DNA of 48,497 nt, taken from positions 1 to 48,497 of IMG/VR virus record IMGVR_UViG_3300022752_000112. The stretch is one strand, 5' to 3'. The notes beneath the pieces were generated by a model that saw nothing but the letters and a program-made list of their open reading frames with translations, did no database searches and was not told the DNA's origin. Positions 16,806 through 37,854 of the stretch are shown here, piece after piece. Position 1 is the stretch's first letter. Each line of letters starts with the position of its first letter. Origin of the DNA: a virus. Both the position numbers and the translations under genes were made by a program.

Positions 16806-16842
16806 TTTCCTTTGCTTTTAATTATTTGTACTAATTCAAAGT

Positions 16843-18283: not shown

Positions 18284-18285
18284 GC

Positions 18286-18540
18286 TTATTTATTTTTATT
18301 TTGATTTATTATGTGTTTAATGCTAAAAGGTATTGAAATAGGAACTAAAATAAAATAGAAAACACATACAGCGCCCAAAGAAATAATAAATGCAAATATA
18401 TTGCTGGTATAAACTAATCGGCTGATTTCATTAACCAGAATACGTTTATCACTTCGTTTTGAAACTAAAATCAATCCTACAATATATAAAATTGACCAAA
18501 AGACAAAAAAATTGCTTAACATTTCATTTTTTATTACCAT
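18286..18540 (-). CDS. Two-span membrane protein (about 80 aa)
   Basis: Hydrophobic segments at about 10-26 and 47-72 flank a basic loop (VSKRSDKRILV). The start could be the ATG at 18540, overlapping the ATPase end by 17 bases, or the ATG at 18522 just after that stop; the latter better fits local spacing. PRD1-like viruses encode small membrane proteins next to the packaging ATPase that form the unique packaging vertex; this is a candidate for that role. Confidence 0.65.
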   Translation of the reverse strand: MVIKNEMLSNFFVFWSILYIVGLILVSKRSDKRILVNEISRLVYTSNIFAFIISLGAVCVFYFILVPISIPFSIKHIINQNKNK

Positions 18541-19348
18541 AGTATTGCATTGTATATTGATCCGACATTCCCTCTATTGCCTCTCGTTCGCTACAATTAT
18601 TCATTTCCTTAAATTCTTTAAGATATTTTTTGTTTGCGTACAGATATTGCTCACAACCCTTTCTAAATTCGTCAAGCGTAAAATCTCCCTCAATTTTATT
18701 AGCAAAATTATGAATGTAAACATAAAATCGAGTATCGCCATTAAAGTAACGATTGTTTACGATATTTTGCGCTATCTTCATCATCGTTGGATTATTTACT
18801 TTTCCTTTAATATCCATAACGTTGTCGGCTTGGTAGTGCATCCTTACCCAACGAGCATTCTGCCAAATTCGTGGTTCAACTGGACGTAATGATTGATAAG
18901 AAATAAGAACATCAACCGCTCGATGCCTTAAAGAAACTAATCCGGAAACAATCTTTTCCATGTGAGAAACATTCAGGATATAAGTATTAACATCTTCTAA
19001 AACCAACAATCCATTTCTAAAATAACGCATCAAAAATTCTATTGCCTCTCTTTTTTTAGCAATATCTAAACTTTTTGCATCTATCCTACGACATTCGACT
19101 TCATTTGACCTTGACCAACTTGGAATATCTTTTAATGCTAAAGTTTTGGCTTCAAAATTTTTAAGTCCATTTTTTTCAAATTGACTTTTAGTATATTCGC
19201 CATTGGTATCAAATATCAAGCACTTGCGACCTTTTACTTTCGTAGCAATTTTATCTCGGCAGTAATCATAAATAATATATTGGTTAAGGTATGTTTTACC
19301 AACTCCCTGTATTCCTGTTATACACATCATTCCTGCCTCTCTTGACAT
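18524..19348 (-). CDS. HerA/FtsK-superfamily ATPase, packaging candidate
   Basis: The Walker A motif GIQGVGKT is at 12-19, and CLIFDTNGEYT gives the second strand. The Walker B motif LLVLED is at 114-119, and a polar motif (LISYQSLRP, Gln at 152) is followed by an arginine-rich segment (IWQNARWVRM), the order seen in HerA/FtsK ATPases. The 274-residue size matches the packaging ATPases of PRD1-, PM2- and A32-type viruses rather than conjugation coupling proteins. No terminase is present in the window. Zot-like filamentous-phage ATPases are an alternative, but the rest of the genome is not filamentous-phage-like. Confidence 0.75.
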   Translation of the reverse strand: MSREAGMMCITGIQGVGKTYLNQYIIYDYCRDKIATKVKGRKCLIFDTNGEYTKSQFEKNGLKNFEAKTLALKDIPSWSRSNEVECRRIDAKSLDIAKKREAIEFLMRYFRNGLLVLEDVNTYILNVSHMEKIVSGLVSLRHRAVDVLISYQSLRPVEPRIWQNARWVRMHYQADNVMDIKGKVNNPTMMKIAQNIVNNRYFNGDTRFYVYIHNFANKIEGDFTLDEFRKGCEQYLYANKKYLKEFKEMNNCSEREAIEGMSDQYTMQYYGNKK

Positions 19349-19351
19349 TTT

Positions 19352-20467
19352 CTATTCTTTTGTAGGTGTTTCAGTTAGTAAAGATAAGTCATTTATGCTA
19401 TTGTCCATTTCATTCAAAATATCGGCATCCAAAGGCTGTCTATTCTTTTTTATTCTTTCTGGATTAGAATTTGTTTTATATTTTTCAACTGGCGGAGGAG
19501 GTGGACTTGAATAATAATCGTTTGTTGGTTCTGGAGGATAGTTGTTTACTACTCCATTCATTTTTCGCTCTCTTAATTGCATTAAAAGTTGATTGTTCGT
19601 TGTTACTATGGCATTTAATTTTATTCCTTGTTCTGCCAAAAGAGATAAACCTGAAATTGCTAAATTGATACTTGCATTTGGTTGTATGTTATTTTCCAAA
19701 AATACCTCAGTTAAATCCTCTGTCAAACCCTCCCTTTTTTCGTCCGAAATTTTCGATGCTACTTGAATTTCGCCTAATTGATTTAAGAAATAATCTTTTA
19801 TTGTTGCCTCAACTCCACCGGGCAGTTCAACTAAAGCAGTTAAATCCATCTCATTATTTAATTCATATTCCATCAATTTATTTGGATTTGTGTCTTTAGT
19901 TGCATACCATACAAACCCTACCTCAAGCAATCCGCATACTAAATCGACAATCGTTTTGGCAAATCTTTTGGCTTTGCGTTTCTCTTTTTGGTTATCGTTT
20001 ACTGTTGATGGCGCTTGATTTCCGGGATTGAAAATTCTTTGTTTTTGGTTATTTTCACTTTCCGTTTTTGCGCTTCTTAATTCTTCATCGGAGGGAAACT
20101 CGAACGCCTGATTGTATGTTTTTGGTTCTGCATAGGCGCTTTTATTGTTCTTTTGAAAATCGGCAAATGGATCAAATTTATCATCCATAACGTAATCTCT
20201 TACATTTGGTTCTTCTCGATTTAATGGATCAATAAATGGTTTTTCCATGCTTGTATTGTTTCCTTGTGCGACCTCCTCTGTTATTTCTACAACCTCGCTG
20301 GTTAATTCGTTATGTAATTTTTGTAATTCCTCGAAATCGGAGGCTGGAGTTATTTTGTCTGCTAACTCTGGATTGGATTGTATGCTTTTTTTAATGTTTT
20401 CTAACATTGTCCTTTCCCGGTAGTTAAGGTTTCCCTTTTTCTTGTAAAAATCTGTATTCTTATTCAT
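19352..20467 (-). CDS. ATPase-partner protein with disordered ends
   Basis: Of the 371 residues, the first 150 are charged and low-complexity. A basic stretch (about 160-170) leads to a hydrophobic helix (about 172-192, IVDLVCGLLEVGFVWYA) and a helical middle. The C-terminus is Pro/Tyr-rich (PPEPTNDYYSSPPPPPVEKY) and disordered. The gene stops 3 bases before the ATPase start. It could be a portal-vertex or membrane-associated packaging factor; no family is recognised. Confidence 0.65.
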   Translation of the reverse strand: MNKNTDFYKKKGNLNYRERTMLENIKKSIQSNPELADKITPASDFEELQKLHNELTSEVVEITEEVAQGNNTSMEKPFIDPLNREEPNVRDYVMDDKFDPFADFQKNNKSAYAEPKTYNQAFEFPSDEELRSAKTESENNQKQRIFNPGNQAPSTVNDNQKEKRKAKRFAKTIVDLVCGLLEVGFVWYATKDTNPNKLMEYELNNEMDLTALVELPGGVEATIKDYFLNQLGEIQVASKISDEKREGLTEDLTEVFLENNIQPNASINLAISGLSLLAEQGIKLNAIVTTNNQLLMQLRERKMNGVVNNYPPEPTNDYYSSPPPPPVEKYKTNSNPERIKKNRQPLDADILNEMDNSINDLSLLTETPTKE

Positions 20468-20903
20468 GGCTTATTTTTTCTAACAATTTACTTAAACATA
20501 CTTTGTACTTATCTAAAAACTCTTTATCTCTCTTAAACTTATCAGGCATCAATTTTTCAAAATGAGAAATAGCCACATTTACACTATTTGGATAAGTTCT
20601 AAATTTTTGTGCAATTTTTCTTTTTGAAATTCCCAAGTGTTTGTTAAGCAGTACGAATAAGGTAATTTTGGCTTGGTATATTTCATTTCTTGAATACTTT
20701 TCAAAAAATGTCTTTTGAGAAACATTAAATTCTACACAAACTATATTAGTTGCCATTTCCAGATTGTTTGCGTGTTTTTCCTTATTCAATAAAATGTTAC
20801 TTATTGCCTCAATAACTTCATCTATCGGCAGGATTGATAAAACTTCGGTTATTTTTTTAAGCAAAACATTTATATTCTTATTTACTTCAAGCACGTTGTT
20901 CAT
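20460..20903 (-). CDS. DnaA domain IV-like DNA-binding protein
   Basis: The C-terminal half (QAKITLFVLLNKHLGISKRKIAQKFRTYPNSVNVAISHFEKL) has the helix pattern of DnaA domain IV: 'A..l.r.l...S...Ia..f....sv..ai...e'. No AAA+ domain is present. In many Bacteroidota phages such stand-alone domains bind DNA as replication or transcription factors. It heads the ATPase operon. A -7-like box lies 31 bases upstream of its start. Confidence 0.65.
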   Translation of the reverse strand: MNNVLEVNKNINVLLKKITEVLSILPIDEVIEAISNILLNKEKHANNLEMATNIVCVEFNVSQKTFFEKYSRNEIYQAKITLFVLLNKHLGISKRKIAQKFRTYPNSVNVAISHFEKLMPDKFKRDKEFLDKYKVCLSKLLEKISHE

Positions 20904-21488: not shown

Positions 21489-21643
21489 TTTCTTTGTTTG
21501 TCCATTTCAGGTTTAACAATATATCTATATCCTAAATACCCAACGAGAGCCAGTCCGATTATCCAAAATATAGCATTTGATTTTTTAGTCGTTCCAACGC
21601 CTCCACCAGAACCAAAATTTGATGTATTAAAATTTGTTATCAT
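21485..21643 (-). CDS. 52-residue membrane protein with Gly-rich N-terminus
   Basis: The N-terminus reads MITNFNTSNFGSGGG; one span lies at about 26-43 (IFWIIGLALVGYLGYRYI) and the tail is basic. Both ends are in ATGA overlaps (with 21488 and 21640). The Asn/Gly-rich start followed by a span is similar to other small virion proteins here. Confidence 0.65.
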   Translation of the reverse strand: MITNFNTSNFGSGGGVGTTKKSNAIFWIIGLALVGYLGYRYIVKPEMDKQRK

Positions 21644-22122
21644 TGTTTTTGTATTTGAAATTGTGTACTATTTATTGGATTTTCTAAAAGAGAAAATTTA
21701 TTGGCAATTACTAAACCATTTTCTTCGTTTGGTTCATAGGTTTCCCAAATCAAATCATAACAATTTGGCAAAAGCGATTTCATTTCCTCCATGCTTATTT
21801 CTCTTAAACCATTTTTAATTGCATTATACAACTCTTTTTCTATTAAGATACCTAACTGCTCGTCTGCATGGTTTTTCGGTTCATCTGCGCCGTCCTCGTC
21901 AGTTTCATAAGCAAAACTATCTAACAATAAATCAACTAAATCCGCATCGAGTTCTTTTAATTTCTCGATAGTATCTTCGCCTATTTTTTGACCAATTCTT
22001 TTTTTGCTTTCAATTAAATTTTTAAGTTGAGTAATTTCTCGGATTTTCAGTTGTAAGTTTCTATCTAAATCGGAAATATCAACCTCGTTTTTTTCTAAAA
22101 CTTTTTCAAATGCTAATTTCAT
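21640..22122 (-). CDS. Helical hypothetical protein (160 aa)
   Basis: A soluble, acidic, mostly helical protein with a coiled-coil N-terminal half (about 15-65) and an acidic centre (ETDEDGADEP). No membrane span or catalytic motif. It is last before two tail-anchored peptides in a run that also contains the cell-wall hydrolases. Function unknown. Confidence 0.65.
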   Translation of the reverse strand: MKLAFEKVLEKNEVDISDLDRNLQLKIREITQLKNLIESKKRIGQKIGEDTIEKLKELDADLVDLLLDSFAYETDEDGADEPKNHADEQLGILIEKELYNAIKNGLREISMEEMKSLLPNCYDLIWETYEPNEENGLVIANKFSLLENPINSTQFQIQKQ

Positions 22123-23772: not shown

Positions 23773-24591
23773 TCAAATTTCTTCACCTGATCCAACATTC
23801 TTACCATCAGTATATTTCAACCCTCTATCTTCCCAAATACTTGGTTTTGGTTCATTATATATTTTACTTGCTAATTTTTTATCGAGCGCATCAACGCTTT
23901 CCGGCGCAAAATTTTTGGCTGTTTGTCCTGCAAGTAAATAAGCGCCTAAATTTGCTACAAGCAATTTTCCGCCTTTCTTCATCGTTTCTAAAACACCAGA
24001 TTTATCATCGTCATAAACCAAATAGGAATTTCTAATATCACGAGATACTGAACTATTTAATTCAATTTCTTTGGATAAAAAACGAATAATATACCAATTT
24101 GGAACTTTTACAAAATTATCATCAACTATTACCTCTGCGTAGGTAGGAAACAAATCATTAACAATACCTATTCTTGTAAGTCCATATTTATCTAAAAATT
24201 CTACTTTTTCGCCATATACTTTACTCAAAATTTCTGGAAGCACACCTCCACTATCATATTTTATTTTTCCATCTAAATAGTGAGTTACATCGCTTAAATT
24301 TTGCTCGGCTTTTGCTAACAAAACTACTGCCCAAGTTGGTATGTTTTTGTTTTTAGTCAAAATCATTTTCAATTCTTCGGCGTGATGTATAATTGCTTTA
24401 TTGTCGCCTTTGACCATTTCGTAATTTTGATTGTCGATTGTACCTCCATCGTCAAATTTTTTAGAATTTGCCTTGCTTAATGCGATAGCGATAGCCTGAT
24501 CCCTTTTGGTAACAATATCGCCAGAGGAACTTTTGAGTTTTCCCTCCTTAAATTCTTGCATAACCATTTCGATTATTTTTTCTCGTTTCAT
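23773..24591 (-). CDS. DUF6496-like protein with KFDDGG motifs
   Basis: Residues 5-45 (MVMQEFKEGKLKSSSG, then VTKRDQAIAIALSKA) match the short DUF6496 domain common in phages and mobile elements. KKFDDGGT follows immediately. A helical section (NKAIIHHAEELKMIL) precedes a second KYDSGG, and the C-terminal part has a membrane-like helix (about 215-230, LLVANLGAYLLAG). The [KR][FY]xxGG motifs separate domains exactly as in the giant proteins upstream. Function unknown; co-injection with the DNA is a guess from context. Confidence 0.7.
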   Translation of the reverse strand: MKREKIIEMVMQEFKEGKLKSSSGDIVTKRDQAIAIALSKANSKKFDDGGTIDNQNYEMVKGDNKAIIHHAEELKMILTKNKNIPTWAVVLLAKAEQNLSDVTHYLDGKIKYDSGGVLPEILSKVYGEKVEFLDKYGLTRIGIVNDLFPTYAEVIVDDNFVKVPNWYIIRFLSKEIELNSSVSRDIRNSYLVYDDDKSGVLETMKKGGKLLVANLGAYLLAGQTAKNFAPESVDALDKKLASKIYNEPKPSIWEDRGLKYTDGKNVGSGEEI

Positions 24592-24701
24592 TTTGTCTTG
24601 TATGTTTTTATTGCTACACTCATAAGGTAAAGGCTTAATCCTATAATAGTCAGTCCTGCTACCACCCGGTAAAATTTTTGTTTTGGCGTTTCGTTTTCCA
24701 T
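24588..24701 (-). CDS. 37-residue membrane peptide
   Basis: MENETPKQKFYRVVAGLTII, then GLSLYLMSVAI and a basic tail. One span at about 13-31. ATGA overlap downstream, and only one base separates it from the stop of the Cys-motif gene upstream. Confidence 0.6.
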   Translation of the reverse strand: MENETPKQKFYRVVAGLTIIGLSLYLMSVAIKTYKTK

Positions 24702-24702
24702 T

Positions 24703-25047
24703 TTATTTGTTTGGTTTTGGTATCGCTGTATCGCCACTAACCCACAATCTACACCAATGACTTAATTTTATATTTCCTCGTATTTGAGAGCATATCAATT
24801 CGTCATTAACGTATCTGCGAAATGTGAAACGACAATTACCACAATTTTGTCCATTGACACCATAAGATTTGTAGTTGCTATCTGGTTTTGACATTTTGTA
24901 AGGAGGAGTTCCTGAACCTAATAACCAATATAACAAAGGTTTTTTTCTACGTTCCTCGATTGGTAACGCTCTAAATTCTTTGATTGCTTGTTTTATATAT
25001 TTATTGGCTTTTAATCCAGCGCTTTCATAAAAAAATTGTTCCTCCAT
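24703..25047 (-). CDS. Small protein with HiPIP-like four-Cys motif
   Basis: The C-terminal half has CGNC, then Cys after 13 residues (LICSQ), then WCRLW after 12 more. This spacing and the final W-C-x-x-W resemble high-potential iron-sulphur proteins, in which four cysteines hold a 4Fe-4S cluster. The N-terminal 60 residues are helical and basic. Zinc binding is the simpler alternative. No electron-transfer partner is present. It sits between the giant RelA-like protein and wall hydrolases. Confidence 0.6.
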   Translation of the reverse strand: MEEQFFYESAGLKANKYIKQAIKEFRALPIEERRKKPLLYWLLGSGTPPYKMSKPDSNYKSYGVNGQNCGNCRFTFRRYVNDELICSQIRGNIKLSHWCRLWVSGDTAIPKPNK

Positions 25048-25054
25048 TGTCTTA

Positions 25055-27328
25055 TTAAAGATTTTCTAAATTAAGATTTACTCTTGTAGTTCCTTGTAGC
25101 AACTCTCGAATTTTACCTTTATCTGCGAGTAATTGGTTATACTTTTCGATGGCGATTTCATTTCCGTTGTCGGCACGTTGCGTTAATTCTGTTAATTGGA
25201 GTAAATTTTCGCCATTTAGATTTCCTGCTTTGTAAAATTCATGTGCTATTTCATTTATGGCTTTCATTCTTTTAGTTTTCAACTGAACTTCAACTTTGTA
25301 GCCCTCTGGAGTTTCAATTATATAATGATATGCCATATATCCTGCGTTTGGATTAGAATAGAAATCATCAATATCAACGACTTTTCCTAATAGACCATTT
25401 TCAATTTTCATTTTAAGCGCCAACAATTCTTTGTAATCATCAACCGCTATCGTTGTACCAATTAAATCAGTTAATCCTTTTTTAGGATCAAGCAATCGCT
25501 TATCAACTAATTTTTTGATTATAGAGTAAGGAGTTTTAGTTCGAGCGTAAATGTTCGCATCTTTCGGCGATTTTGATTTCAACTCATCAACAACTGAATA
25601 CATACTTGCATCTAATTTCTTTTTTAACTCAATTACTTTTTCAATAATTGGCGCTAATTGTATATCTTCTACATATTCTTTTTTGTTTTTGTTGGTTGGA
25701 AATTTATCGTCTATATTAACAATTCCATCTTTATCGAAATCCCCAAAAACACCCTCATATAATTTTTGGTCGAATTTTTTACCCTCGTTAATTATTTTTA
25801 CTTGTCCTCCCTTGACTTCCCCACCATCGTCAAATTTGTCAAATTTGTTTTTTAGTCGATAAGTAAAATGAGTTTTTGGAATATGTCCGTAAATTGTTTT
25901 TACCAAAACCCTTGCTTTTTCTATTGCCTCGTCTTTGTTTTTTGCGAGAATAACTTGATTAACTAAACCACCTCCCGAAACAATATATTCCCTTAAATTT
26001 GATTTTGCTGAACCATTAGGCGCTAAACCATCGTTAATACTTCCACCGCCATCATATTTTTCCCATTTTTCGTTTTTATTACGTTTGTTGTGTTCTAACG
26101 ACCAAGCGCTTCCAGTTGGATATTCTCTGCCATTATGATACGTTAATTTGCCCCCTGCGTTAAATGAAAAAAATCCTCTTTTTTTTGGCTCTGGAGTATC
26201 AATGATTTCAATGATATTGTCTGGAGTAATTGAGTACGAACCCCAACCACTTGTAGCAACATACTTTCCATTTCCCAAATCCTCCGTAATTTTTCCCATT
26301 TTTTCCTCGCCATATCTATTCCAAATTACGCTTTTTCCTACCATTCCTCCATCAGCGTATTCTTCTATTGTATCGTCAAAATCAGCATCGTTGTATTCTA
26401 CAACTCTCATATAATCCGCTAAATCTCTTAAATCTATTCTTTCCCTGTTGCTTGTTGAGTAATAACCCTGCTTTTCAAATCGTTTCTTAAACTTTTCAAA
26501 TGCAGGCATCAATTCGCTTTCAGTATAAACTGCATCCATTTCAATATCGAAACCATCAGGGCTTAATAACCTATATTTTTTTTCGCTTGTTTCAACATGC
26601 CCACCATTAACCATTAAAACTGCAAGTAATTTTTTATGAACATTAGGTTCTAAAGTATCCCAATTTTCATTGCTTAAATCATTCGCTACTGATTTAGAAA
26701 AACCAGCACTAATTAAAAAATCTATTTTTCTTTTTTTATCAAATCTATTCCAATATGATTTTGCATTATTCATCTGTCCTACATTCCCACCATCATTGTA
26801 TCTTTCATCTCCATGCCAATCATTTACAATATCTAACAAAGTTTCTTTGGCAACTTCTAAAGGTTCTGCATCACCAACCATTATTCCATCGTTATCATAA
26901 ATAGTATAAAGATTTTCTTCTACCAAAGTACCATTGTAAGTTATTTCTCCCTCGTAAAATGATAATTCTATGGTATATCCTGATGGTTCGTGAATATATC
27001 CTCCTGAACCATCTGGCACAAAATCATCGCCAACAGAGCCTCCATCGTCAAATTTTTTAATTTGTTTCTTAACGGATTTCACAGCACTTTTAGTTGTTTT
27101 AGAAACTGTATGAGCCGGGACGTTTCCTCCCAAAATACCACCAATAACAGCACCAACAATAAACCCTCCCAATTCGTGTTTTTTTACAACTTTATCATTT
27201 ACTCTTACGACAGAGGAATTAAATCTTTTTTCTGCTTCGTTGATCCTATCTTGCAGAGGTTCGGTAGATGCTTCACAATGTATTGTGCAATTCCGATTAT
27301 TTTCAAAGGTTAATTTATATTCGTTCAT
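25055..27328 (-). CDS. Polyvalent-type protein with RelA/SpoT synthetase-like domain
   Basis: A 757-residue modular protein. A Gly-zipper hydrophobic segment (FIVGAVIGGILGG) lies near residue 60. At least five [KR][FY]xxGG punctuation motifs separate unrecognised modules. A calcium-loop-like DFDKDGIVNIDD precedes the C-terminal domain (about 550-700), which resembles (p)ppGpp synthetases: YARTKTPYSIIKKL, LTDLIGTTIAV, GYMAYHYI and YKVEVQLKT parallel the family's 'R.K...Si..K', 'l.DiiG.ri', 'gYrs.H' and 'vEiQirt'. The R/S of GYRS is replaced by M/A, so activity is uncertain. Start taken at 27328, one base after the upstream stop. Confidence 0.7.
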   Translation of the reverse strand: MNEYKLTFENNRNCTIHCEASTEPLQDRINEAEKRFNSSVVRVNDKVVKKHELGGFIVGAVIGGILGGNVPAHTVSKTTKSAVKSVKKQIKKFDDGGSVGDDFVPDGSGGYIHEPSGYTIELSFYEGEITYNGTLVEENLYTIYDNDGIMVGDAEPLEVAKETLLDIVNDWHGDERYNDGGNVGQMNNAKSYWNRFDKKRKIDFLISAGFSKSVANDLSNENWDTLEPNVHKKLLAVLMVNGGHVETSEKKYRLLSPDGFDIEMDAVYTESELMPAFEKFKKRFEKQGYYSTSNRERIDLRDLADYMRVVEYNDADFDDTIEEYADGGMVGKSVIWNRYGEEKMGKITEDLGNGKYVATSGWGSYSITPDNIIEIIDTPEPKKRGFFSFNAGGKLTYHNGREYPTGSAWSLEHNKRNKNEKWEKYDGGGSINDGLAPNGSAKSNLREYIVSGGGLVNQVILAKNKDEAIEKARVLVKTIYGHIPKTHFTYRLKNKFDKFDDGGEVKGGQVKIINEGKKFDQKLYEGVFGDFDKDGIVNIDDKFPTNKNKKEYVEDIQLAPIIEKVIELKKKLDASMYSVVDELKSKSPKDANIYARTKTPYSIIKKLVDKRLLDPKKGLTDLIGTTIAVDDYKELLALKMKIENGLLGKVVDIDDFYSNPNAGYMAYHYIIETPEGYKVEVQLKTKRMKAINEIAHEFYKAGNLNGENLLQLTELTQRADNGNEIAIEKYNQLLADKGKIRELLQGTTRVNLNLENL

Positions 27329-27329
27329 T

Positions 27330-27938
27330 TTATCCTTTTCTTGCGAGTTTAACATTTATATTTTCAAGTAATTTTAATAAGGCTTTACATTCTGCAATCA
27401 GTTTTTCGATTTCGCTTTTGGTTATTTCTTCATCGGCAATCCGTTCTTTTACGTTATCAAAAACACTTTCGATTTTTTCCTTGTTTTTCGTTGCTGGAGT
27501 TTTTTTAGGCAAATTGGCTCGTTCTTGCGCTTTTTTCTTGCGCTCTTTGGCTTGTTTAATCAACTCATCGCAATCGTATGGATCAGTCGTTTTCTTTCCT
27601 TTTGGTATTGGTTTTTTCTTTTCGGTTTTTTCTTTTTTAGGCTTAACTATTTCTTTGCTATCCGATATTGGTTTTTTCATTCTCTCGGACATAGCACTTA
27701 AACTTATTCCTTGCCCTTGCGCTTGTCCTGTTCTTTTTTGTCTTGCCAATTCCTCCTCGTAGGTACTTCCTGCCGAACTTTTCAAGGCATCGAGTTTGTC
27801 ATTAAGCATTTCTAATTGTTTGCGAAAAACAGATTTCATATTTTCTGGAGTTGCAGGGCTATTGAGCGCCTCTCTTATGTTTTCAATATCTGTTTCTATT
27901 TCCTTTTGAAGTTGATTTGAACTGGTGTATTTACTCAT
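27330..27938 (-). CDS. Basic coiled-coil protein (202 aa)
   Basis: Two helical coiled-coil regions (about 1-55 and 150-195) flank a Lys/Pro-rich linker (about 85-150, for example KEKTEKKKPIPKGKKTT). There is no membrane span. It lies between the two largest polyvalent-type genes, overlapping the helicase stop by one base. It may be a DNA-compacting or chaperone-like partner. Confidence 0.65.
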   Translation of the reverse strand: MSKYTSSNQLQKEIETDIENIREALNSPATPENMKSVFRKQLEMLNDKLDALKSSAGSTYEEELARQKRTGQAQGQGISLSAMSERMKKPISDSKEIVKPKKEKTEKKKPIPKGKKTTDPYDCDELIKQAKERKKKAQERANLPKKTPATKNKEKIESVFDNVKERIADEEITKSEIEKLIAECKALLKLLENINVKLARKG

Positions 27939-30900
27939 TATTTCATGTATTTAATTACGCTTTCAAGTCCTTTAATAAACGCCTCAACGTCCATTTTTTC
28001 TTTTCCCTCTAAATACTTAATAGTGCTTTTTGCCCCTATTAAAGATTTATTTAATTCATCCAAAGTTACTGCTTTTTCGCTTATTTCAGGTTGCTTTGTT
28101 TGTGGTTGTGTCATTTTATAGTAAGGTCTGGTTTCTGGAATTTGTAACCCTCCTCGTTCAACAATTTTTTGAGTTAAACTATCTATTTTAATGTAACCAT
28201 CAACATTTGATTTTAATTGCTGAAATGCACTATCTCCGGTTGAATAAAAATCATCAATTACTGAAATAGGAACGTATCGACCAAATTCGGCAGTACCACT
28301 ATTATCATCTCGGTATCTTTTCAATGCCCTCTCAATAGATTGTTCTTTTGGAATATCCATAAAAACTAAAAATGTTTGATAACCCAAATTCTTCAAACGT
28401 TTAATAATAGGTTGATATTTTTTGACGTTTGACATTGTACCATCGTATAACAAATCATGTTTACAAGGCTGGTCGAATGTGTCTAACAACTCAGTAACTA
28501 TATCTCTGGCTTCCTCGTGCGTTGAGGAACTATTCCAACCCTTGTATTCAGGTAAAAAACTCCGAACTTCGTCAGCATCCACTTTCCAAATCATATCCGA
28601 TTGCATATAAGGAGCATTGGATCGTAAAAATGTTGATTTTCCCGAACCGGGAGCGCCTCCCATAATAACCGCAATAGGTTGGTCTTGCTCGGTACAAACT
28701 GCTTTACTTGTTAGTTTATTGATTATTTGCTGATGCAACATTTTTCGCTCTGGAGTATAAGTATATTTAATACTTCCATCTTCGTTTTTACCCTCAACTG
28801 AATGTAGATATTTTGTTTGTGGTTGTGTTTTTTCGCAATCGGCTAATAGGACAAGTCCCTCTGGATCAATTCTCGGTTTTCCATTTTTATCAACTGGAGG
28901 ACACATAAGAGGTTGAACTTTTTGAACGTTTGGCAATTTTACATCGTCTAATAAGTAATTTAATCGTTCAAATTCGGTAATAAGTTCATTAACCGATTTT
29001 TCTTGGATATTTAATTCACTTCTTTTTATTTCTATTTCCCTGATTTTTTGGTTAATTGTTTCCTCACTTGTTAAAGCCTTAATTTGTTCCTCTACTGCTT
29101 TTTTTCTGGTTTCGATATTTTGCGTTAATTCTGCTTGGCTAACATTATTTTTCAAGCCTCGTGGCGCTAAATAATCTTTTTCAAATTTTAGTGTTTTTTT
29201 AACAGCATTGAGAACTTCATCAAAATACCATGGCTTAAGTTCTTTTGGATGAGGGCTTGTTTCTTTTCCTTTTGGTGCAGTTTCTTTTTGCGATTGCCAC
29301 CTACCATTAAACCAACCGTATTTATCGCCTACTGTATATCTTCCATCTTCATCTAAAAATGTAGTAAAGTAATTTATCAATGCTTTCATTTTGGCTTCAA
29401 TGCTTTTGTTAGAAGCGCTTGGTCGGTAAACTCCAATAAGTTTGTCTATATCATCTAACCTATATTCTATACTGGATTTTTGTGCAAAAAAATCATTTAT
29501 CTTTTGTAACTCATTTGATAAATCGGAAATTTGTTCGTTTAATTCTTCGGTTTGTTCGTTTATTTCTAATTGAGCAATAACCTTAGGATTTTTAATGAGA
29601 GCAAATTTCAAGTCCTTTGGATTGAGTTCTTCCGTTTTTAGGACATTTGTTTTTCCATCAGTATCAAAAATTGAATTTATCCGGCTTGTCTTTTCTTCCA
29701 ATTTTTGAAACATAAAAATATCGGAACTATCAATCATTAAGGGATTAACTATTCTTACATTAGCAAACGCATTACCCTGTCTGTAAATTCTACCCTCTAA
29801 CTGCTGAATGTCCGTAGGATTAAATGGTAGAAAACAATTAAATAAGGTCGAACTATACTTTTGTAAGTTTATGCCCTCCTTTATTGTTGCTGATCCGATT
29901 AAAATCTTTAAGCGTTGCTCGTCCGGTAATTGTTCCATTTCCAACGAGTTTGTGTTGAATTTTAGACCTAAAAATAAATTTTTAACATACTCTTTGGCAT
30001 CTTCGTCTTTTATTCCACGTTCAATCGGCATTTTCAATTTTGACGAAATAATGCCAACCTCGTGCGGTTGAAATCCTACATTGGTAATTAAATAATCTCT
30101 TATTAACTCAAAAAAATTAGTACCTCGCTCCGAATAAATTACAATTCCGGACATTTTGGTATTGGTTTTTTCGTGATGAAGTTTTATTGATTTAATAGCC
30201 TCCATTACATAAGTTAGTTTTCCAGAGGTTTCAATAAATTTTTCTGGAGTTGGATTTCCTAAATAACTATATTGATAAAGGTAAGGCGATAAGGCTAAAT
30301 TTCTTGAATGATTTAGCGCTAACAATAAACGTACTCCTACCCTTTCCTCCTCATCCATACTATCCTCATCGAGTTCTACTTCCTCTACATCAACCTCCAT
30401 TTCGGTTTCTAAATAATTGGCTTGTCGCCCACCGCTTTCTAACTGCGCTTTATTGATTGTACCCTCTGCATAACTTTTTATTTGATCCATAAATTCCTTT
30501 TGTAAAGGAGTTAATGGAATTGCTGTATCAACTTGCTCATCGGCAGGCAACGTCATTAAAACACCATCTTTGAGCATTTTTTTGTAAGGTAAAACATATT
30601 TTTTTGGTCGTTTTACATTTACGCTTTCGCCTGTTTTATGGTTGATAAATTGTTTTACCAATCGTTGTAAAACAAGCAAATTATTAAAGCCTAATACAAT
30701 TTGTTTGCGTACCGGGTTTAAGGCTGTGTTGATTACAATTTCATACGAAATTTTGATAAACGTATCAAAAAATTCTTTAAGATTGCTTAATCCCTGTCTT
30801 TCTAATTCCTTAAATGAAACCATCGCTAACATCGAATAAATTTCTAAAGGACTATTAGTAAAAGGAGTTGCTGTTAATAATTGCGTATTTCCTTGATATT

Positions 30901-33900
30901 TGTTTTGAATATATTGACAAATTGAAAATCCTTTAATTGCTAAAAAACTCGGTACACCTGCTTGTATTTTATATTCTGTTACTTGTTTATCTTTTTTGTC
31001 GCTTTTGTTTGAAGTATTTTCTTCAGCGGAGGCATTTACAAACGTAAATACTTTTTTACAGGCGTGCGCCTCATCTATACAAATGTAATCAATGCCTAAA
31101 TCTTCGATATTTATTTTTGTTTTCCTTAAAGCCTTGCCAATGATTTCTTGGACTTTTGTTGCGGTTCTTAACGCTTCTTTTTGGGCTTGTTTGTCTGTTA
31201 TTTCATCGCCCATTTGTAACAAAATTGAAAACAAATCTTTTTCTAACAAATTGGCTGTATCATCATTGAAACCTAACGCACTTAAACCCTCGTAAGTCAT
31301 TATTGTAACTGATTGCTCTGCAACTTGGAGAGTAATTCCATTACTATCTTGGTATTCCTCAATCGTAGTATCGTTAAGATTGTATAACTTATTAAGTTTA
31401 AGATGCCCTGCAAAATTTTTGAACTCGGAAATCCATTGTTTGTAAGTTTGATTAGGTACAACAAAAAGAGGTCTTTTTGCCCAACCAAAATCAATAAACT
31501 GACTGACCGTATAAATTGCTGATGGAGTTTTTCCTACACCAACATCATAGGCTAATAAACCTGATCCATTGCTAACCGTAAAGGCAACCGCCTCTCGTTT
31601 TTCAGGTTTTACAAATTCAGGCTGACCGAAAACAAATTTATTCATTCTAAAGGCTACTGGAATACGCTTGTAATCAACTGGTACGTTGTTATTGTACTGC
31701 ATATTCCACTCATTCTCGATTTTGACTTTATCCTCCGCCAATAAAAATTTATCTAAAAAAATTAAAAACAATCTGTCCCCCTCCGATTTACATTTGGCTT
31801 TCATTCGCTCGTGCGTTGCACTTTCCTCTTTCATTATTTTTTTTGACTGCGCAGAGTAAGTTCCATCGCTTTCTTTTGTAGCATTGGTTTTTGGTTTTTG
31901 TTTTGAAAAAATGTAAAATTGAATAATATCTGCATAAGTTAATCCTTTTTTAATTCCTGCTCCGCTATCTGTTCTAAGCCAATAACAAAATGCAAACCGC
32001 AGATTTAATTGGTCTATTTCTGTTTTATCGTTTTCGCTAACATTCGTTGCTAAAAAATCTAATTGACCATAACGAGGATTAGATTGTGCTGTAATCTTTT
32101 TCCACTTGAAAGGGATTTCGTCTGCCAGAGTTTTAATAAAAAAGTTTTTAGCAAAATCGGAGTTAGGCAGTATTACTAATCCATTTTCGTTACTACTATC
32201 AAGCGTTAATCTTGTCTTGAATTGTTTGTCGTACAAATTGTTAATTAAAGCAATTTGCGAATTCAATGCTTTTTCGCTATACTCATTTTTTATTGTTTCT
32301 GCATCCGTTGAAACACTTGCAGTTAAACGATTATATTTTCCATAAACATCGCCAGATAAAAACAAATAGGTAGGCTCTAATCTATTACGTTCGCTGTTGT
32401 AACATAAATACCCTGCTTCCATCCACTCGATTAAAGTTTCTTTGCTTATTGTACCTAATTCGCTTATTGATTTTCCGGCTATTTGATAGTATGTTTCGTT
32501 CTCAATTTTTTTACCATAGTGAAGATTAAACCACAAAAACACACATAATTCTTCTTTGGTTATGTCTTGGTTTATTTCCTGATAAACTTCTTCTATACTT
32601 CGAGTTATTATGCTTTCGCTTTCGCTTGTAGCAATTTTTTGTTCTTCAACCTTTTGCTTTGATTTACGTTGTTTTTTTTCTTTCACTGCGGTTTTAGATT
32701 GATTTATTGCCTTTTCAACATTATTTAGTTCCGTAGTGTCCTTATCCGAAATATCTTCAATATCGCTATCTACAACTGAAATTAAAGGATTGTTTTCTTG
32801 ACTTAAAGCAACAATATCAAACGGAGCATCAATTAAATCCACATTGTCAATAAATCCTTTGTAGGTTTTAATTTGTTTTCCATATCTATCTTTATCCATT
32901 TGAATAGTCGCTAATACTTTATCTGGAAAGGATTTGTACCAATCGCCATTTGAAAACATATTTTCGTCCATAGTTTGTTTTTCGTTTTTGATTTCTTTTT
33001 CGCTTGTTACTGAGTACACTTTTTCAATGATTTTAATTGTGTCCTCGTCTAACTTGTTTTTAACAAAATTATTAAATAATTCTTGTTTCGTTATTGGCTC
33101 TCCAAACAACATACTTCCTTGATTTTGAGATGCAGAGTTATTGTATTGCTCGATTGATGCCTTAAAGGTATTTCTACCTAAATGTAAAAATCGGTTCATA
33201 AATACAATATCAATTTTGGGTTTTTCATCAAATAAAGGATATTGAGTTAGCCAATCTTTGAAACCTAACTTGCTTGAAGATATTTGATTTTCTAACAATA
33301 AAGCCTCGTTGATTTCCGGGATCAAAGAATAATTTGAAAATGTATTGTTTAGCGATAAAACTGGTAACGATGTTACAAGCATATTTCTTATTCTTTTTTG
33401 ATTGTCAGCCACGCTTAACGCCTCTGGACTAAGTATTGAACCAAGTAATGTATTTTCAAGTAAATCTTTTCCGGCTTCAGTAAAAGTTCTATCCCCAAAA
33501 TACGCAGGAAGTTCTTGAGTATTCAAAATGTTACAACCTAAAAGCGCATCAATAACATTTTTGCAGTCATTGTAATTTGCGTAAAAATCGCTTAATGTTT
33601 CGTATTGCCCTACAATGCTTTGTATCGTTTCTTTGCACTTTGGTTGAGTTTCTAAAATTTTACTCAATTTGATTGACTTGTCAATCGGTCTTTCAGTTTT
33701 TTTTGTGTCCTTATTGTACTTTGAAAGTTCAAGCGTATTCAACGCCGGAATATCGTAATCTATTCGGACTAAAACAGGTTCTACAAATGTTTTAGTTTCT
33801 CCGAAATTGTTTGAAAAAGTTACCTTGTAAGTTTTTAATTTATCAATATAAACCTTATCTCTTTTTGTAAAACCAAAAGCAGAACATTCATCAATTAAAA

Positions 33901-34588
33901 AATTTACATAGTCATTATATTCTTGTGGGAAATTGGCAAAAGTACGTTTCAATGACATTGTTCGGTTATTACCAGAAACCACAATGCCACTTTCGGTAAT
34001 AATCGGAGTGCCTGATGGAGTTCTGCTTGTCGTAATTAACCTTTCAGGCTCCAACGATTGTGATATTTCAATAACTTGCGCTTGTGCGTTTTTATCGTCT
34101 TGGTAGTTCCTATCATTGATATTGTTTCCTTTACTATCAACTGGATAACCCTCTGTCGTTAAAAAAGTATTTTCGTTATGAGATGCTTTTATCTTGTTTA
34201 ATTCTACAATAGCAAATTGACCTTTCCTTGTTTCGCCATTTGGCATTTTTAATTCTATTTCTCGTCCTTTAAGCATTTCAATAGGAACTCCACCTAAACC
34301 AAATTTCTCATTTTCCATTTTTGCTAATTTTGTATAATAATTTTTATCCTCTATTAAATGATCCAAAGCAATCAGTTTAGCGCTTTGTTCTACATTGTTT
34401 CCTATATTTTCTAAAGTCGATTTATGCTCTAACTCAACTTTCATTCCTGCTTTTACTTCGTTTTCGTCTAAATTTAATTGATGCCAAAAATTATTTTTTT
34501 TGATATAGTAAACTTCTTGGCTATCTATTAACCTAATTTGTTTTTGGTCATCGCTATAAATTATATTGTCAAGCATTTTATCATTCAA
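27938..34588 (-). CDS. Giant polyvalent protein: ParB-like, SNF2 helicase, zeta-type kinase
   Basis: 2216 residues. N-terminal KFGLGGVP, then a ParB/DdrB-like region (about 140-260, GTPIITESGIVVSGNNRTMS). A DarB-like superfamily 2 helicase follows: DVGVGKT near 1016, DEAH (YICIDEAHA) near 1171, LLTATPF, then SATIKEGINLQ and QLEGRIYRQG. A coiled coil (about 1700-1900) and a zeta-toxin/PezT-like P-loop kinase (GGAPGSGKST near 1979, VDADEV) complete it. Such multidomain proteins are the 'polyvalent' proteins of phages and conjugative elements, often injected with DNA to counter host restriction (as P1 DarB). The individual domains are clear; the combined role is inferred. Confidence 0.85.
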   Translation of the reverse strand: MNDKMLDNIIYSDDQKQIRLIDSQEVYYIKKNNFWHQLNLDENEVKAGMKVELEHKSTLENIGNNVEQSAKLIALDHLIEDKNYYTKLAKMENEKFGLGGVPIEMLKGREIELKMPNGETRKGQFAIVELNKIKASHNENTFLTTEGYPVDSKGNNINDRNYQDDKNAQAQVIEISQSLEPERLITTSRTPSGTPIITESGIVVSGNNRTMSLKRTFANFPQEYNDYVNFLIDECSAFGFTKRDKVYIDKLKTYKVTFSNNFGETKTFVEPVLVRIDYDIPALNTLELSKYNKDTKKTERPIDKSIKLSKILETQPKCKETIQSIVGQYETLSDFYANYNDCKNVIDALLGCNILNTQELPAYFGDRTFTEAGKDLLENTLLGSILSPEALSVADNQKRIRNMLVTSLPVLSLNNTFSNYSLIPEINEALLLENQISSSKLGFKDWLTQYPLFDEKPKIDIVFMNRFLHLGRNTFKASIEQYNNSASQNQGSMLFGEPITKQELFNNFVKNKLDEDTIKIIEKVYSVTSEKEIKNEKQTMDENMFSNGDWYKSFPDKVLATIQMDKDRYGKQIKTYKGFIDNVDLIDAPFDIVALSQENNPLISVVDSDIEDISDKDTTELNNVEKAINQSKTAVKEKKQRKSKQKVEEQKIATSESESIITRSIEEVYQEINQDITKEELCVFLWFNLHYGKKIENETYYQIAGKSISELGTISKETLIEWMEAGYLCYNSERNRLEPTYLFLSGDVYGKYNRLTASVSTDAETIKNEYSEKALNSQIALINNLYDKQFKTRLTLDSSNENGLVILPNSDFAKNFFIKTLADEIPFKWKKITAQSNPRYGQLDFLATNVSENDKTEIDQLNLRFAFCYWLRTDSGAGIKKGLTYADIIQFYIFSKQKPKTNATKESDGTYSAQSKKIMKEESATHERMKAKCKSEGDRLFLIFLDKFLLAEDKVKIENEWNMQYNNNVPVDYKRIPVAFRMNKFVFGQPEFVKPEKREAVAFTVSNGSGLLAYDVGVGKTPSAIYTVSQFIDFGWAKRPLFVVPNQTYKQWISEFKNFAGHLKLNKLYNLNDTTIEEYQDSNGITLQVAEQSVTIMTYEGLSALGFNDDTANLLEKDLFSILLQMGDEITDKQAQKEALRTATKVQEIIGKALRKTKINIEDLGIDYICIDEAHACKKVFTFVNASAEENTSNKSDKKDKQVTEYKIQAGVPSFLAIKGFSICQYIQNKYQGNTQLLTATPFTNSPLEIYSMLAMVSFKELERQGLSNLKEFFDTFIKISYEIVINTALNPVRKQIVLGFNNLLVLQRLVKQFINHKTGESVNVKRPKKYVLPYKKMLKDGVLMTLPADEQVDTAIPLTPLQKEFMDQIKSYAEGTINKAQLESGGRQANYLETEMEVDVEEVELDEDSMDEEERVGVRLLLALNHSRNLALSPYLYQYSYLGNPTPEKFIETSGKLTYVMEAIKSIKLHHEKTNTKMSGIVIYSERGTNFFELIRDYLITNVGFQPHEVGIISSKLKMPIERGIKDEDAKEYVKNLFLGLKFNTNSLEMEQLPDEQRLKILIGSATIKEGINLQKYSSTLFNCFLPFNPTDIQQLEGRIYRQGNAFANVRIVNPLMIDSSDIFMFQKLEEKTSRINSIFDTDGKTNVLKTEELNPKDLKFALIKNPKVIAQLEINEQTEELNEQISDLSNELQKINDFFAQKSSIEYRLDDIDKLIGVYRPSASNKSIEAKMKALINYFTTFLDEDGRYTVGDKYGWFNGRWQSQKETAPKGKETSPHPKELKPWYFDEVLNAVKKTLKFEKDYLAPRGLKNNVSQAELTQNIETRKKAVEEQIKALTSEETINQKIREIEIKRSELNIQEKSVNELITEFERLNYLLDDVKLPNVQKVQPLMCPPVDKNGKPRIDPEGLVLLADCEKTQPQTKYLHSVEGKNEDGSIKYTYTPERKMLHQQIINKLTSKAVCTEQDQPIAVIMGGAPGSGKSTFLRSNAPYMQSDMIWKVDADEVRSFLPEYKGWNSSSTHEEARDIVTELLDTFDQPCKHDLLYDGTMSNVKKYQPIIKRLKNLGYQTFLVFMDIPKEQSIERALKRYRDDNSGTAEFGRYVPISVIDDFYSTGDSAFQQLKSNVDGYIKIDSLTQKIVERGGLQIPETRPYYKMTQPQTKQPEISEKAVTLDELNKSLIGAKSTIKYLEGKEKMDVEAFIKGLESVIKYMK

Positions 34589-34824: not shown

Positions 34825-37800
34825 TTATTTTTTTCGTAAAACAATAATATCCGATGTTACACCTGTTCGCTCAAATGTTTTATCCGGTAATCGGTAAGCA
34901 TCTAAAAATTCGCAATTTTCGGACAAATACTCTTTTACTGGACTATTACCACTATCTAAAAATAATTTGCCACCATTACGAACTTCTGCTCCAACAATCA
35001 TGATTAACAAACCTCCGGTATTCAAAAGGTCTATTCCTCTGCGTAAAAAATACTCGACATAACTTTGTGCCTTAGTAAATTTTTGTTCGCCATAACCTAA
35101 TAACAATCTTGAAGCCTTTGGATCAAGAATACTTAAATCGCCATAAGGCGGATTTCCAATTACTAAATCAAATTTTTCCAGATTACTAATTTTATTTCCT
35201 ACGGTATTGTTATCCTTAATAAATACACTTTCAAAAGGCGCTAAATTAACATTACAAAAAGGATATAAAATTTGAGTAATCATCGCAGAATAAGGATTGA
35301 CTTCATAAGCCACAACCCGGCTTAATGGATTAGCAAATTGTAAAAATTCGCCAGTACCAACACTTGTTTCTAAAACTGAACCATTGGCAGAATATCCATA
35401 TTTGTAGGCTAATGCCCACATTTTCTCAATTACTTTTTTTGGAGTAAAAAATTCAAACAATGAACCAACTGAAATTTCGCCATACTTTCCTAAACCACCA
35501 TCGCCAGAAAAATTTTTGATAAATGCTTTTTGCTCTGGAGTAAATGATACGTTTTTGGCATTTTCAAACTTGACTACATTTTCATCTAAATAATGCTTAA
35601 TTGCTTTATTGAGTTCATAAGGATTTGGGTATGAACTAATGTCAAAAGATATTTCGTTTTTACTTTCATTTAGGAATTGTTTAATTGCTCTTTCTATGTC
35701 CGAAACCAAATCAATAATATCTTTGGCTATATCGTGCATCGGTCTTAACTTACCTGAAATGGTTGTTGGTATAGGATCAATGCCTCCTAAAAAAGAACGA
35801 ATAATATCAAGGTTAATTTTTTTTCGCCATTTTAGATTTATCCTACTAATACCAAACTTAAATTCCGTTGTATTGTCTAAAAAATACATATCGAAAATAT
35901 CCGTTGATATTTCAAATTCGTTTATGTGATTTGAAATTGGACGAGGATTGATTTTATACGAATAATCATTAAGTTCATCTAACAATTTTTGTCCATTTTT
36001 TAAGGATTGTGTCGTAACAAAATCATTCGGTAAATTGTCATTAAAAAAATAAAAATCAATTACTTCTTCTTTATTAGGTTGGGAATTGTTTTGTTTATCA
36101 AAAGAACTTTCTTTGTCGTTATCAATGTTGCTCCATAGGGTAGGCTTAAAATAAAAGTCCAATTCTATTTTTTGATTATTGATAAGTTCCTGAACTGAAA
36201 TATAACCCATTTCTGCGCCATATCCTAAATTTACATAACCAAAGAACTCTCCAGAGTTTCTGTCGTATTCAGTTATATACCAATCTTGATTTCCAAAAAA
36301 GTAATGTAGATAAATTGTTTTATCTTTCACTCCATCTTGTCCGTAAAGTTTAGGAATTGAAAAAACAGCGTTATTTACATTTTCCGTAGCATCTTCTTGT
36401 TCGGAATAATTTATGCTTTCCAAAAATTTTAATTGGTGTTTAGGAACTATTTTTTTTGCCTCTTTGGAAAAAGCAGGCTGTTTGTTGTTTTTGCTATCCG
36501 AAATAATTATTTCATCTTCATCTTTTGGTGCTTGGGCTGACAATCTTTCAAATCGCTGTGCTTTGTTTTCTATTTTTTTTATTTCAGTTGCTGAATATAC
36601 ATTTTTGCTACCAAACGTATCTACTGTATAAAGTTTATTGACTAAAGTATTTCCTCCAAAGATATTTACTATTATTCCAATTTTTCCTATTTCTTCAGGG
36701 AAAAAAGAACTGTTAATAATTTCCACTGTATCTCCCATTTCTAAAGAGCCACCATCTTTATATTTTGTTTTCATATTTTTATTTGTGTTTTCCATTTTGA
36801 TTTTTCCTACCGAGCCTCCATCGTCGAATTTTTTGTATGTATAACCTAAATTCTCAATTAAATCATTGTCTTGACTATATTTCCCGGACTTACTTACTCC
36901 ATTGATTATTTTGTATAGGAAAGCGTTTAATCTTGCTAATCCCCAAGCAGTTCTACTATTAGGTTTACCTGCTGAAATAGTTGGTCTATGCGAGGACGAA
37001 TAAGCCCCCATGCCTCGCCTTACTACCGCTTTGGCTACTGAAAGGCTTATTTTCTTATCTGGATGCTTTTCGTTGTGATCCTTTACTTTGTTTTTTAACG
37101 TTTCAGTCAAATCTTCACTAAACTGAATTGATTTAGCAGAATTTATATTTGCCGATGATCCGGCTTTGTTTATGGAACTTCCTGAAATTCTATCTTTTTT
37201 TGGTGCTGGTGTTTGAGAAATTGTGCCTCCCGGTTTGTATTTATTAGGATTATGCCCCCAAATAAGCAAAGACATAAGTTTGCGTGTTTTTCTACCTTTA
37301 TCATCGTATAGTTCTCCTTGATTTCCTCGCATACGAGAAATAAAACTAATTTGTTTTTTCGCCCACCTCCACATTGTATCAGTCCAATTTTTGTAATTGG
37401 TTTTTTTCATTTTCAAAATCCATTCTGCGCTTTCCCTACCACTACTAATACCCTGTTTGTCGGCTTCAGTTTTTGTTAATCCACTTTCTTTTCCCTCGTT
37501 GGAATTGTAGTATTTAAGTAATTCACTGTAACTCATATTTACCAATGATTTCCACTTCTGGTAAATTATTTTTTTATCGTTATTTGTGAGTTTACCTCCT
37601 TGTTCAAATTTATTGAATAGTTTATCGGCTTCGCTTGGTTCTGGGATAGGTACGCCTCCTGTGGACTGATTGATTTTTGATAGTTCTTTCCAATGTAATG
37701 CAGTGGCTTTAGAGTTAATAATTGCCTCTCCGGTTTCTACTTCAATAGGTTGCCCGGTATCGACCACAATAGCAGGAATACCTCCCTCGCTGTGTTTTTT

Positions 37801-37854
37801 ACCTATAAACAAACCACCTTTTTTGCCATCGGAAGTTTTTTTGAATTTATCCAC
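34825..37854 (-). CDS. Polyvalent-type protein: HSEGG domain, DUF2958, N6-adenine methyltransferase
   Basis: 1009 residues starting at GTG (an upstream in-frame TAA excludes an earlier start). The N-terminus has GLFIGKKHSEGGIPAIVVD, then GEAIINSKAT, a module often found in phage proteins. [KR][FY]xxGG motifs follow (KFEQGG, KYKPGG, KKFDDGG, KYKDGG). Residues about 495-570 resemble DUF2958 (FFGNQDWYITEYD, FFGYVNLG). The C-terminal class I methyltransferase has LETSVGTGEF and NPPYGD near 901. It probably methylates adenine to protect incoming DNA. First gene of the leftward operon that includes the giant helicase. Confidence 0.8.
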   Translation of the reverse strand: MDKFKKTSDGKKGGLFIGKKHSEGGIPAIVVDTGQPIEVETGEAIINSKATALHWKELSKINQSTGGVPIPEPSEADKLFNKFEQGGKLTNNDKKIIYQKWKSLVNMSYSELLKYYNSNEGKESGLTKTEADKQGISSGRESAEWILKMKKTNYKNWTDTMWRWAKKQISFISRMRGNQGELYDDKGRKTRKLMSLLIWGHNPNKYKPGGTISQTPAPKKDRISGSSINKAGSSANINSAKSIQFSEDLTETLKNKVKDHNEKHPDKKISLSVAKAVVRRGMGAYSSSHRPTISAGKPNSRTAWGLARLNAFLYKIINGVSKSGKYSQDNDLIENLGYTYKKFDDGGSVGKIKMENTNKNMKTKYKDGGSLEMGDTVEIINSSFFPEEIGKIGIIVNIFGGNTLVNKLYTVDTFGSKNVYSATEIKKIENKAQRFERLSAQAPKDEDEIIISDSKNNKQPAFSKEAKKIVPKHQLKFLESINYSEQEDATENVNNAVFSIPKLYGQDGVKDKTIYLHYFFGNQDWYITEYDRNSGEFFGYVNLGYGAEMGYISVQELINNQKIELDFYFKPTLWSNIDNDKESSFDKQNNSQPNKEEVIDFYFFNDNLPNDFVTTQSLKNGQKLLDELNDYSYKINPRPISNHINEFEISTDIFDMYFLDNTTEFKFGISRINLKWRKKINLDIIRSFLGGIDPIPTTISGKLRPMHDIAKDIIDLVSDIERAIKQFLNESKNEISFDISSYPNPYELNKAIKHYLDENVVKFENAKNVSFTPEQKAFIKNFSGDGGLGKYGEISVGSLFEFFTPKKVIEKMWALAYKYGYSANGSVLETSVGTGEFLQFANPLSRVVAYEVNPYSAMITQILYPFCNVNLAPFESVFIKDNNTVGNKISNLEKFDLVIGNPPYGDLSILDPKASRLLLGYGEQKFTKAQSYVEYFLRRGIDLLNTGGLLIMIVGAEVRNGGKLFLDSGNSPVKEYLSENCEFLDAYRLPDKTFERTGVTSDIIVLRKK

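Follow-up and report, generated by a model that had tools for sequence, protein, structure and literature searches.

The DNA analysed here is the virus record IMGVR_UViG_3300022752_000112 of IMG/VR, taken whole (48,497 nt; hereafter the window, to which all coordinates refer). Its minus strand contains an open reading frame (ORF), 25055-27355, that encodes 766 amino acids (aa) when counted from the first ATG. A second ATG at 27328, which gives 757 aa, was the start chosen in an earlier sequence-only reading of this DNA, and we also prefer it to 27355, because an AAAAGGA stretch precedes it and the homologue on a related virus contig (G001) begins at the equivalent residue. Residue numbers below follow the 766-aa ORF; for the start at 27328, 9 is to be deducted. 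The protein ends in a cassette made of an acidic loop and a RelA_SpoT domain (Table 1). On balance, we favour the view that this domain has the RelA/SpoT fold and is competent in catalysis as an ATP-dependent 3'-pyrophosphokinase, carried as an exchangeable cassette of a polyvalent effector protein that would be delivered by the virion.

Table 1. Features of the RelA-type protein and of its surroundings in the window
Feature	Position	Strand	Basis or remark
Putative polyvalent effector protein with C-terminal RelA cassette	25055..27328	-	757 aa (766 aa from ATG 27355)
RelA_SpoT synthetase domain, residues 605-709	25229..25543	-	Pfam and fold match
YARTKTPYS, predicted ATP-phosphate residues R605, K607 and S611, followed by K615	25523..25549	-	11/11; equivalent to FaRel2 R64/K66/S70/K74
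TDLIGTT (syn2), predicted Mg-binding D630; T635 replaces the adenine-stacking Arg (FaRel2 R95)	25451..25471	-	D in 11/11
GYMAYH (syn3), residues 672-677, predicted acceptor-stacking Y673, and H677	25325..25342	-	Y and H in 11/11
EVQLKT (syn4), residues 689-694, E689 and Q691	25274..25291	-	11/11
Acidic loop GDFDKDGIVNIDDKFP, residues 538-553, calcium-loop-like	25697..25744	-	five Asp in 11/11
FDDGG linker directly before the RelA cassette, residues 508-512	25820..25834	-	[FYM]xxGG motif
Six other [FYM]xxGG motifs	26042-26056, 26150-26164, 26345-26359, 26600-26614, 26786-26800, 27038-27052	-	
Glycine-zipper hydrophobic stretch LGGFIVGAVIGGILGG, residues 62-77	27125..27172	-	in the N-terminal part common to G001 and G002
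Coiled, basic ORF, 202 aa, upstream	27330..27938	-	homologous stretches in 5/11 related contigs
Polyvalent protein, 2216 aa: DUF5661, ddrB-ParB, SNF2-type helicase, zeta toxin	27938..34588	-	Pfam; DarB-like PHROG
Protein of 1009 aa: DUF3140, N6 DNA methylase, GG linkers	34825..37854	-	Pfam; DarB-like PHROG
HerA-like ATPase, putative packaging	18524-19348	-	HerA (DUF87), 23.5 against a cut-off of 23.2 bits, barely passing

The C-terminal ~105 residues match the Pfam family RelA_SpoT at E=2.3e-14 (54 bits, curated cut-off 27), a search of the own genome for this domain gives E=4.1e-17, and phmmer with the window protein picks up RelSeq and the RelA of E. coli among PDB entries (7e-5 to 2.8e-4). 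The domain is, by prediction, of the nucleotidyltransferase fold of alarmone synthetases. An AlphaFold2 model built from 11 sequences, which supersedes a weaker first model from 4 sequences (predicted local distance difference test, pLDDT, 69.9), has a mean pLDDT of 82.4 and a predicted template-modelling score (pTM) of 0.71, and RelQ and RelP are its top matches in Foldseek (E 7e-9 and weaker). VIA-align, which re-aligned only Foldseek's own matches, superposes the model on RelQ 5ded with Z 15.6 (161 residues, root-mean-square deviation, rmsd, 3.1), on RelP 6ewz with Z 15.5 (168 residues, rmsd 2.8), on CapRel 7ztb with Z 13.5 (177 residues, rmsd 3.9), on Tas1 6ox6 with Z 11.2 (150 residues, rmsd 3.3), on RelSeq 1vj7 with Z 10.8 (135 residues, rmsd 3.8) and on FaRel2 8pu3 with Z 8.5 (163 residues, rmsd 4.6); the differences in Z were not used to infer the acceptor. 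The best matches among viral models (BFVD) are RelA/SpoT proteins of uncultured phages, several of them within long proteins labelled ART-PolyVal or DdrB-like. Together, the Pfam score and the fold match bear out the sequence-only reading, which had placed a RelA/SpoT-like domain in a phage multidomain protein and had proposed such a superposition; the model fits nucleotide-bound RelQ and RelP as well as RelSeq and FaRel2, and the nucleotide pocket is not missing. The same two results refute a chance match of short motifs, against which the own-genome search and the conserved residues described below also speak, so that the probability of such a coincidence is negligible.

The loop and the domain recur together. 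Single-protein scans of viral and genome contig collections, using the domain or the whole ORF, returned no relative. A two-row alignment (A1) returned nothing from the genome contigs, neither genome-contig scan thus yielding a cellular relative of the module, and from the viral contigs it returned G010 alone, whose copy is 47% identical to the window protein over residues 505-744. Stepwise alignments (A1, A2 and A4) led to 13 viral loci and to the plasmid LC711081, from an uncultured archaeon; L078, L064 and L071 repeat L013 (G010), and L081 repeats L072 (G012). The printed ORF has a shared layout in 12 of the 13 viral loci, namely an [FYML]xxGG linker, a short acidic-loop stretch, a helix and the RelA domain, and the loop pattern D-x-[DN]-x-D-G/S...DD..P precedes the domain in 12 of the 13 and in the archaeal copy. 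By sequence, this family always pairs its RelA domain with the acidic loop. The loop resembles a calcium-binding one, and a calcium-dependent state would be speculative. Besides the window, 10 of 12 module-bearing contigs encode a homologue of the HerA-like ATPase, the other two being short (24 and 6.4 kb). The remaining locus, L086, has a RelA domain, but neither the acidic loop nor the GG linker, in the patterns searched for, occurs in its printed ORF, and its contig has no ATPase homologue; this locus was left out of the family counts.

The archaeal plasmid protein matches the window by tblastn at 1e-22 and gives no RelA_SpoT match in Pfam at E<=0.01, and this copy is therefore divergent. 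At LC711081.1 71882-79662 (L070:26882-34662), three consecutive large ORFs have a common N-terminal segment, and the third carries the acidic loop and the RelA domain; this is an analogous layout of constant head and variable body, without GG linkers of the window type. A literature search on the record LC711081 found nothing relevant. Other candidates were set aside as relatives. The frames matched in Enterococcus phage Efs 1-1-1 and MT838476 would each encode a complete long Rel protein (753 and 783 aa), and the phage-deposited records OR846646.1 (L003) and MT838476.1 (L068) each carry an apparent cellular Rel, probably host DNA. A Bacteroides plasmid match (H19) is a 'RelA/SpoT family protein' amid host-type genes, and PDC-S33 and other matches in the defence library reflect only RelA or helicase domains or are weak.

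In FaRel2, R64, K66, S70, K74 and R77 hold the ATP phosphates and D90 holds magnesium, while the adenine is sandwiched by R64 and R95 and contacted by E145 and Q147, and Y128 faces the acceptor base (PMC11782079; here and below, statements on published work refer to the available portions of the papers cited). We assigned the equivalent positions by sequence alignment, not by coordinate superposition, using 11 family members (alignment A5; the near-copies L080 of L079 and L084 of L083 and the archaeal copy were left out). The equivalents of R64, K66, S70, K74, D90, G93, Y128, E145 and Q147 are invariant in all 11, and the archaeal copy has the same catalytic residues. LTDLIGTT, GYMAYH and EVQLKT, on which the earlier assignment had leaned, are all found in the C-terminal segment that it had named, and the catalytic acidic residues, whose absence would have spoken against it, are present as the invariant D630 and E689. 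Furthermore, the ratio of nonsynonymous to synonymous substitution (dN/dS) of the module was computed for eight pairs. Seven give 0.04-0.10, dS being saturated (>2) in three of these, and the eighth pair is almost identical, with zero nonsynonymous change. The intact catalytic set and this purifying selection favour catalysis, and the module appears to be a maintained and very probably active enzyme.

Several observations weigh against the reading that we favour. The residue equivalent to FaRel2 R95, the Arg of syn2, is Thr in 10 of the 11 members and Ser in one (Tyr in the archaeal copy), so that reduced activity is possible. The window motifs GTT, AYH and LK match fully neither the signature of the Apk2 toxins nor that of the (p)ppGpp enzymes, which leaves the acceptor unsettled. 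The acidic-loop region is poorly modelled, with 10-residue block means of 47-70 over model residues 1-40. Finally, among the first 11 related virus contigs, which were found by way of the putative packaging ATPase and the adjacent 2216-aa ORF, RelA_SpoT was found in one (G010), and the domain is therefore dispensable for the lineage.

The lost Arg could be taken to mean that the domain is a catalytically dead decoy, binding nucleotides or the alarmone enzymes of the host. This is a single ATP-stacking residue, however; the remaining catalytic residues are invariant, dN/dS is low across the module, and Apk2 enzymes are active despite a Thr at that position (RYT; PMC12226406). We therefore hold a decoy to be very improbable, and the earlier suggestion that the protein might merely inhibit host (p)ppGpp enzymes loses ground, given intact catalytic residues under purifying selection.

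The motifs bear on the acceptor as well. Apk2 toxins, which make (p)ppApp, have RYT in syn2 where (p)ppGpp enzymes have AVR, and GxN/YH in syn3/syn4 where the latter have SxH/IR (PMC12226406). The window agrees with Apk2 in the Thr of syn2, while its syn3 and syn4 are nearer to those of ordinary RSH enzymes. None of the 11 members retains an AVR-type syn2 Arg, which weakens the case for an enzyme specific to (p)ppGpp but not the assignment to the domain family. The GYMAYH that the sequence-only reading had set against GYRSxH is indeed present, but its Met is no defining loss, because the position after GY is M in five members, R in five and K in one; the fixed changes are instead the replacement of the syn3 Ser by Ala, in 11 of 11, and that of the syn2 Arg by Thr or Ser. 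A domain that made (p)ppGpp and so triggered the stringent response of the host, freeing resources or blocking host functions, would agree with the (p)ppGpp makers RelQ, RelP and RelSeq being the top fold and sequence matches, with the retained syn3 His and basic syn4 residue, and with the alarmone-like response proposed by Iyer et al., 2017 (PMC5512222). Both fixed changes argue against it, and we consider it rather unlikely that (p)ppGpp is the product and no other acceptor is used. With the syn2 Arg lost, a non-housekeeping acceptor ((p)ppApp-like or tRNA) seems somewhat more likely than (p)ppGpp, judging from these motifs.

The cassette is one of several that appear to be separated by [FYM]xxGG motifs. 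The window ORF has seven such motifs against a shuffle mean of 0.36, and seven were reached in none of 2000 shuffles. Among 41 proteins picked for having at least two motifs, 244 of 419 local-alignment ends (58%) adjoin a motif when motifs are masked, against a null mean of 14% and maximum of 20% (40 runs, motifs and masks shifted together). In the unmasked test, 242 of 493 ends (49%) adjoin a motif; 500 shifts gave 11% on average and never more than 19%. The moving masks were adopted because the motif itself may extend alignments in the unmasked test and fixed masks may stop them in a masked one. Since every alignment enters twice, once for each of its proteins, and the proteins are relatives of one another, these figures are a contrast and not a probability. 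Segment order differs in 5 of the 16 protein pairs that share at least two segments. Window residues 9-97 are common to G001 and G002, most of the sequence beyond them being different, and residues 520-750 are common to G010, L075, L076 and L077, in which the module lies near the N-terminus, internally or at the C-terminus. The glycine-zipper stretch within the shared N-terminal part may insert into a membrane. With the RelA domain, the shared N-terminal part and GG-bounded modules that have homologues elsewhere, the protein falls within the 2 to 15 domains expected of a polyvalent protein. The motifs also separate small modules in window 23773-27328, in 34825-37854 and in the G008 contig 2-12740 (L037), and five consecutive G008 ORFs together contain 34 motifs of the narrower [FY] type.

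In 41 ORFs picked solely for many GG pairs, the residue three positions ahead of GG is F, Y or M at 158 of 486 sites (33%). Elsewhere the figure is 111 of 671 (17%), and the background is 11%. This set differs from the boundary set but overlaps it, and it includes some glycine-rich, probably structural ORFs. The preference for an aromatic residue suggests that something recognises the motif, as a plain flexible linker would not need it. GG-X sites are cleaved in the polyproteins of adenovirus and African swine fever virus, and by analogy one may speculate that cleavage occurs at the GG motifs here. No maturation protease was identified. Window 11015-11863 (minus strand), in the virion region, encodes a candidate metallopeptidase with an HEFAH motif that is homologous in 10 of the 11 related contigs and is a possible maturation protease. 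A search for literature on GG-delimited phage polyproteins found nothing on point apart from PMC5512222, in the available portion of which the word 'linker' is absent.

The genome around this protein gives an indication of the kind of virus. PHROG scans of 52 ORFs found no terminase or portal; one ORF weakly matches minor-tail (E=2.8e-4) and one matches holin (E=7.6e-5). Several ORFs of the virion region (1851-20903, minus strand) end in a hydrophobic stretch and a basic tail. Together with the HerA-like ATPase, these features suggest that this is probably a tailless, membrane-containing bacterial virus with a genome of at least ~48 kb that carries unusually many polyvalent proteins. As a guess, the host might belong to the Bacteroidota. 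A 250-aa ORF at window 15779-16531 (minus strand), conserved in all 11 related contigs at 31-80% identity and with no Pfam or PHROG match, is a candidate for the major capsid protein, which would then be of a type not yet described. Window 10074-11018 is another conserved candidate for a virion protein.

The company of the RelA module is polyvalent too. The homologous ORF of G001 carries LPD11 (E=1.5e-30), and ART-PolyVal precedes the RelA module within one polypeptide in L077, as DUF2958 does in L079; LPD11 and ART-PolyVal are named polyvalent-protein domains, and the protein is thus found in the association that marks this class. In the neighbouring 27938-34588 product, a C-terminal zeta-toxin kinase domain (residues 1959-2129, E=6.5e-30) is a second potential nucleotide-targeting effector. 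The ORF that follows the RelA protein of G010 is homologous to window 21640-22122 and is present in 9 of the 11 related contigs, one of which has RelA_SpoT. No immunity gene particular to the module, comparable to the iapK and aph1 genes adjacent to MuF-Apk2 toxins, was seen, although small divergent proteins could escape such a search.

Virion delivery of the window protein would fit its being a polyvalent protein beside DarB-like genes, a class for which action at entry has been proposed (PMC5512222). Alternatively, the protein might be made in the infected cell and never packaged, with a late role in stopping translation or in countering rival phages. The capsid-tied RelA domains in the available literature are of the MuF type, which agrees with this alternative; the DarB-like polyvalent neighbours and the position of the ORF on the same strand as the virion-region genes argue against it, and we regard it as unlikely. 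According to the virion-delivery reading, the effector protein, composed of the shared glycine-zipper N-terminus, small modules separated by [FYM]xxGG and a last cassette of acidic loop and RelA domain, would be made late, packaged with the DarB-like proteins and brought into the host together with the DNA. With ATP as donor, the RelA cassette would then pyrophosphorylate the 3'-OH of either a purine nucleotide or a tRNA 3' end as acceptor, and host growth, translation or defence might be braked early in infection. A joint reading goes further: the protein would be an effector polyprotein of a putatively tailless virus, whose modules are cut at [FYM]xxGG during virion maturation, the released pyrophosphokinase, with its new acceptor, being kept silent or stable by the calcium-type loop until it reaches the cytosol, and the cassette having been passed to an archaeal plasmid. 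This whole chain is improbable as it stands.

Phage polyvalent proteins with RelA/SpoT domains have been on record since 2017, from (pro)phages of Spirochaetes and epsilonproteobacteria (Iyer et al., 2017, PMC5512222), and the kind is therefore already known. As in that description, the domain sits in a large multidomain viral protein alongside ddrB-ParB, SNF2 helicase and methylase; unlike in the available description, the window has the acidic-loop partner, a putatively tailless lineage and GG linkers. As in the Apk2 MuF toxins (PMC12226406, PMC11699363), a phage gene places a RelA-type domain at the C-terminus of a modular protein, and Thr stands in for the syn2 Arg, but the syn2 of the window is GTT rather than RYT (the final Thr alone agrees), its syn3 AxH rather than GxN and its syn4 LK rather than YH, and no MuF domain was found among the Pfam matches of the window protein up to E=1. 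The toxSAS enzymes FaRel2 and CapRel (PMC11782079, PMC11559606) have the same RelA fold and ATP-site residues, as reflected in the Z values above, whereas the window domain is embedded in a 757/766-aa protein and lacks the adenine-stacking Arg; neither Pfam nor the defence library gave an antitoxin match in that protein. RelQ and RelP are closest in fold and agree in catalytic residues, but are 16-20% identical over the aligned residues, retain the syn2 Arg and are not part of a multidomain viral protein. Unlike in the long RSH enzymes (RelA/SpoT/Rel), there is no HD, TGS or ACT domain, RelA_SpoT alone being above the Pfam cut-off in the window protein. Long proteins of uncultured Caudovirales in BFVD (A0A6J5S4E3, A0A6J5Q8J2, ART-PolyVal, DdrB-like) likewise combine a RelA-type fold with mostly long proteins, but are about 17-25% identical and are labelled as tailed phages. 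A search for injected RelA/SpoT phage proteins turned up only a paper on a phage alarmone hydrolase (PMC12846349). What is new is the subfamily, its fixed acidic-loop partner, the putatively tailless lineage and the GG-cassette layout; judged by its residues, the synthetase domain is seemingly intact and not quite like any characterised form.

These observations define a conserved subfamily of phage alarmone-type synthetases, predicted to be active and to use a non-housekeeping acceptor, and they place polyvalent host-takeover proteins in viruses seemingly without tails. To our knowledge, there is little work on effector delivery in tailless viruses. The GG-cassette layout allows such giant proteins to be divided into modules by a simple rule, which helps to detect other effectors, and it makes the processing of polyvalent proteins into pieces a directly testable question.

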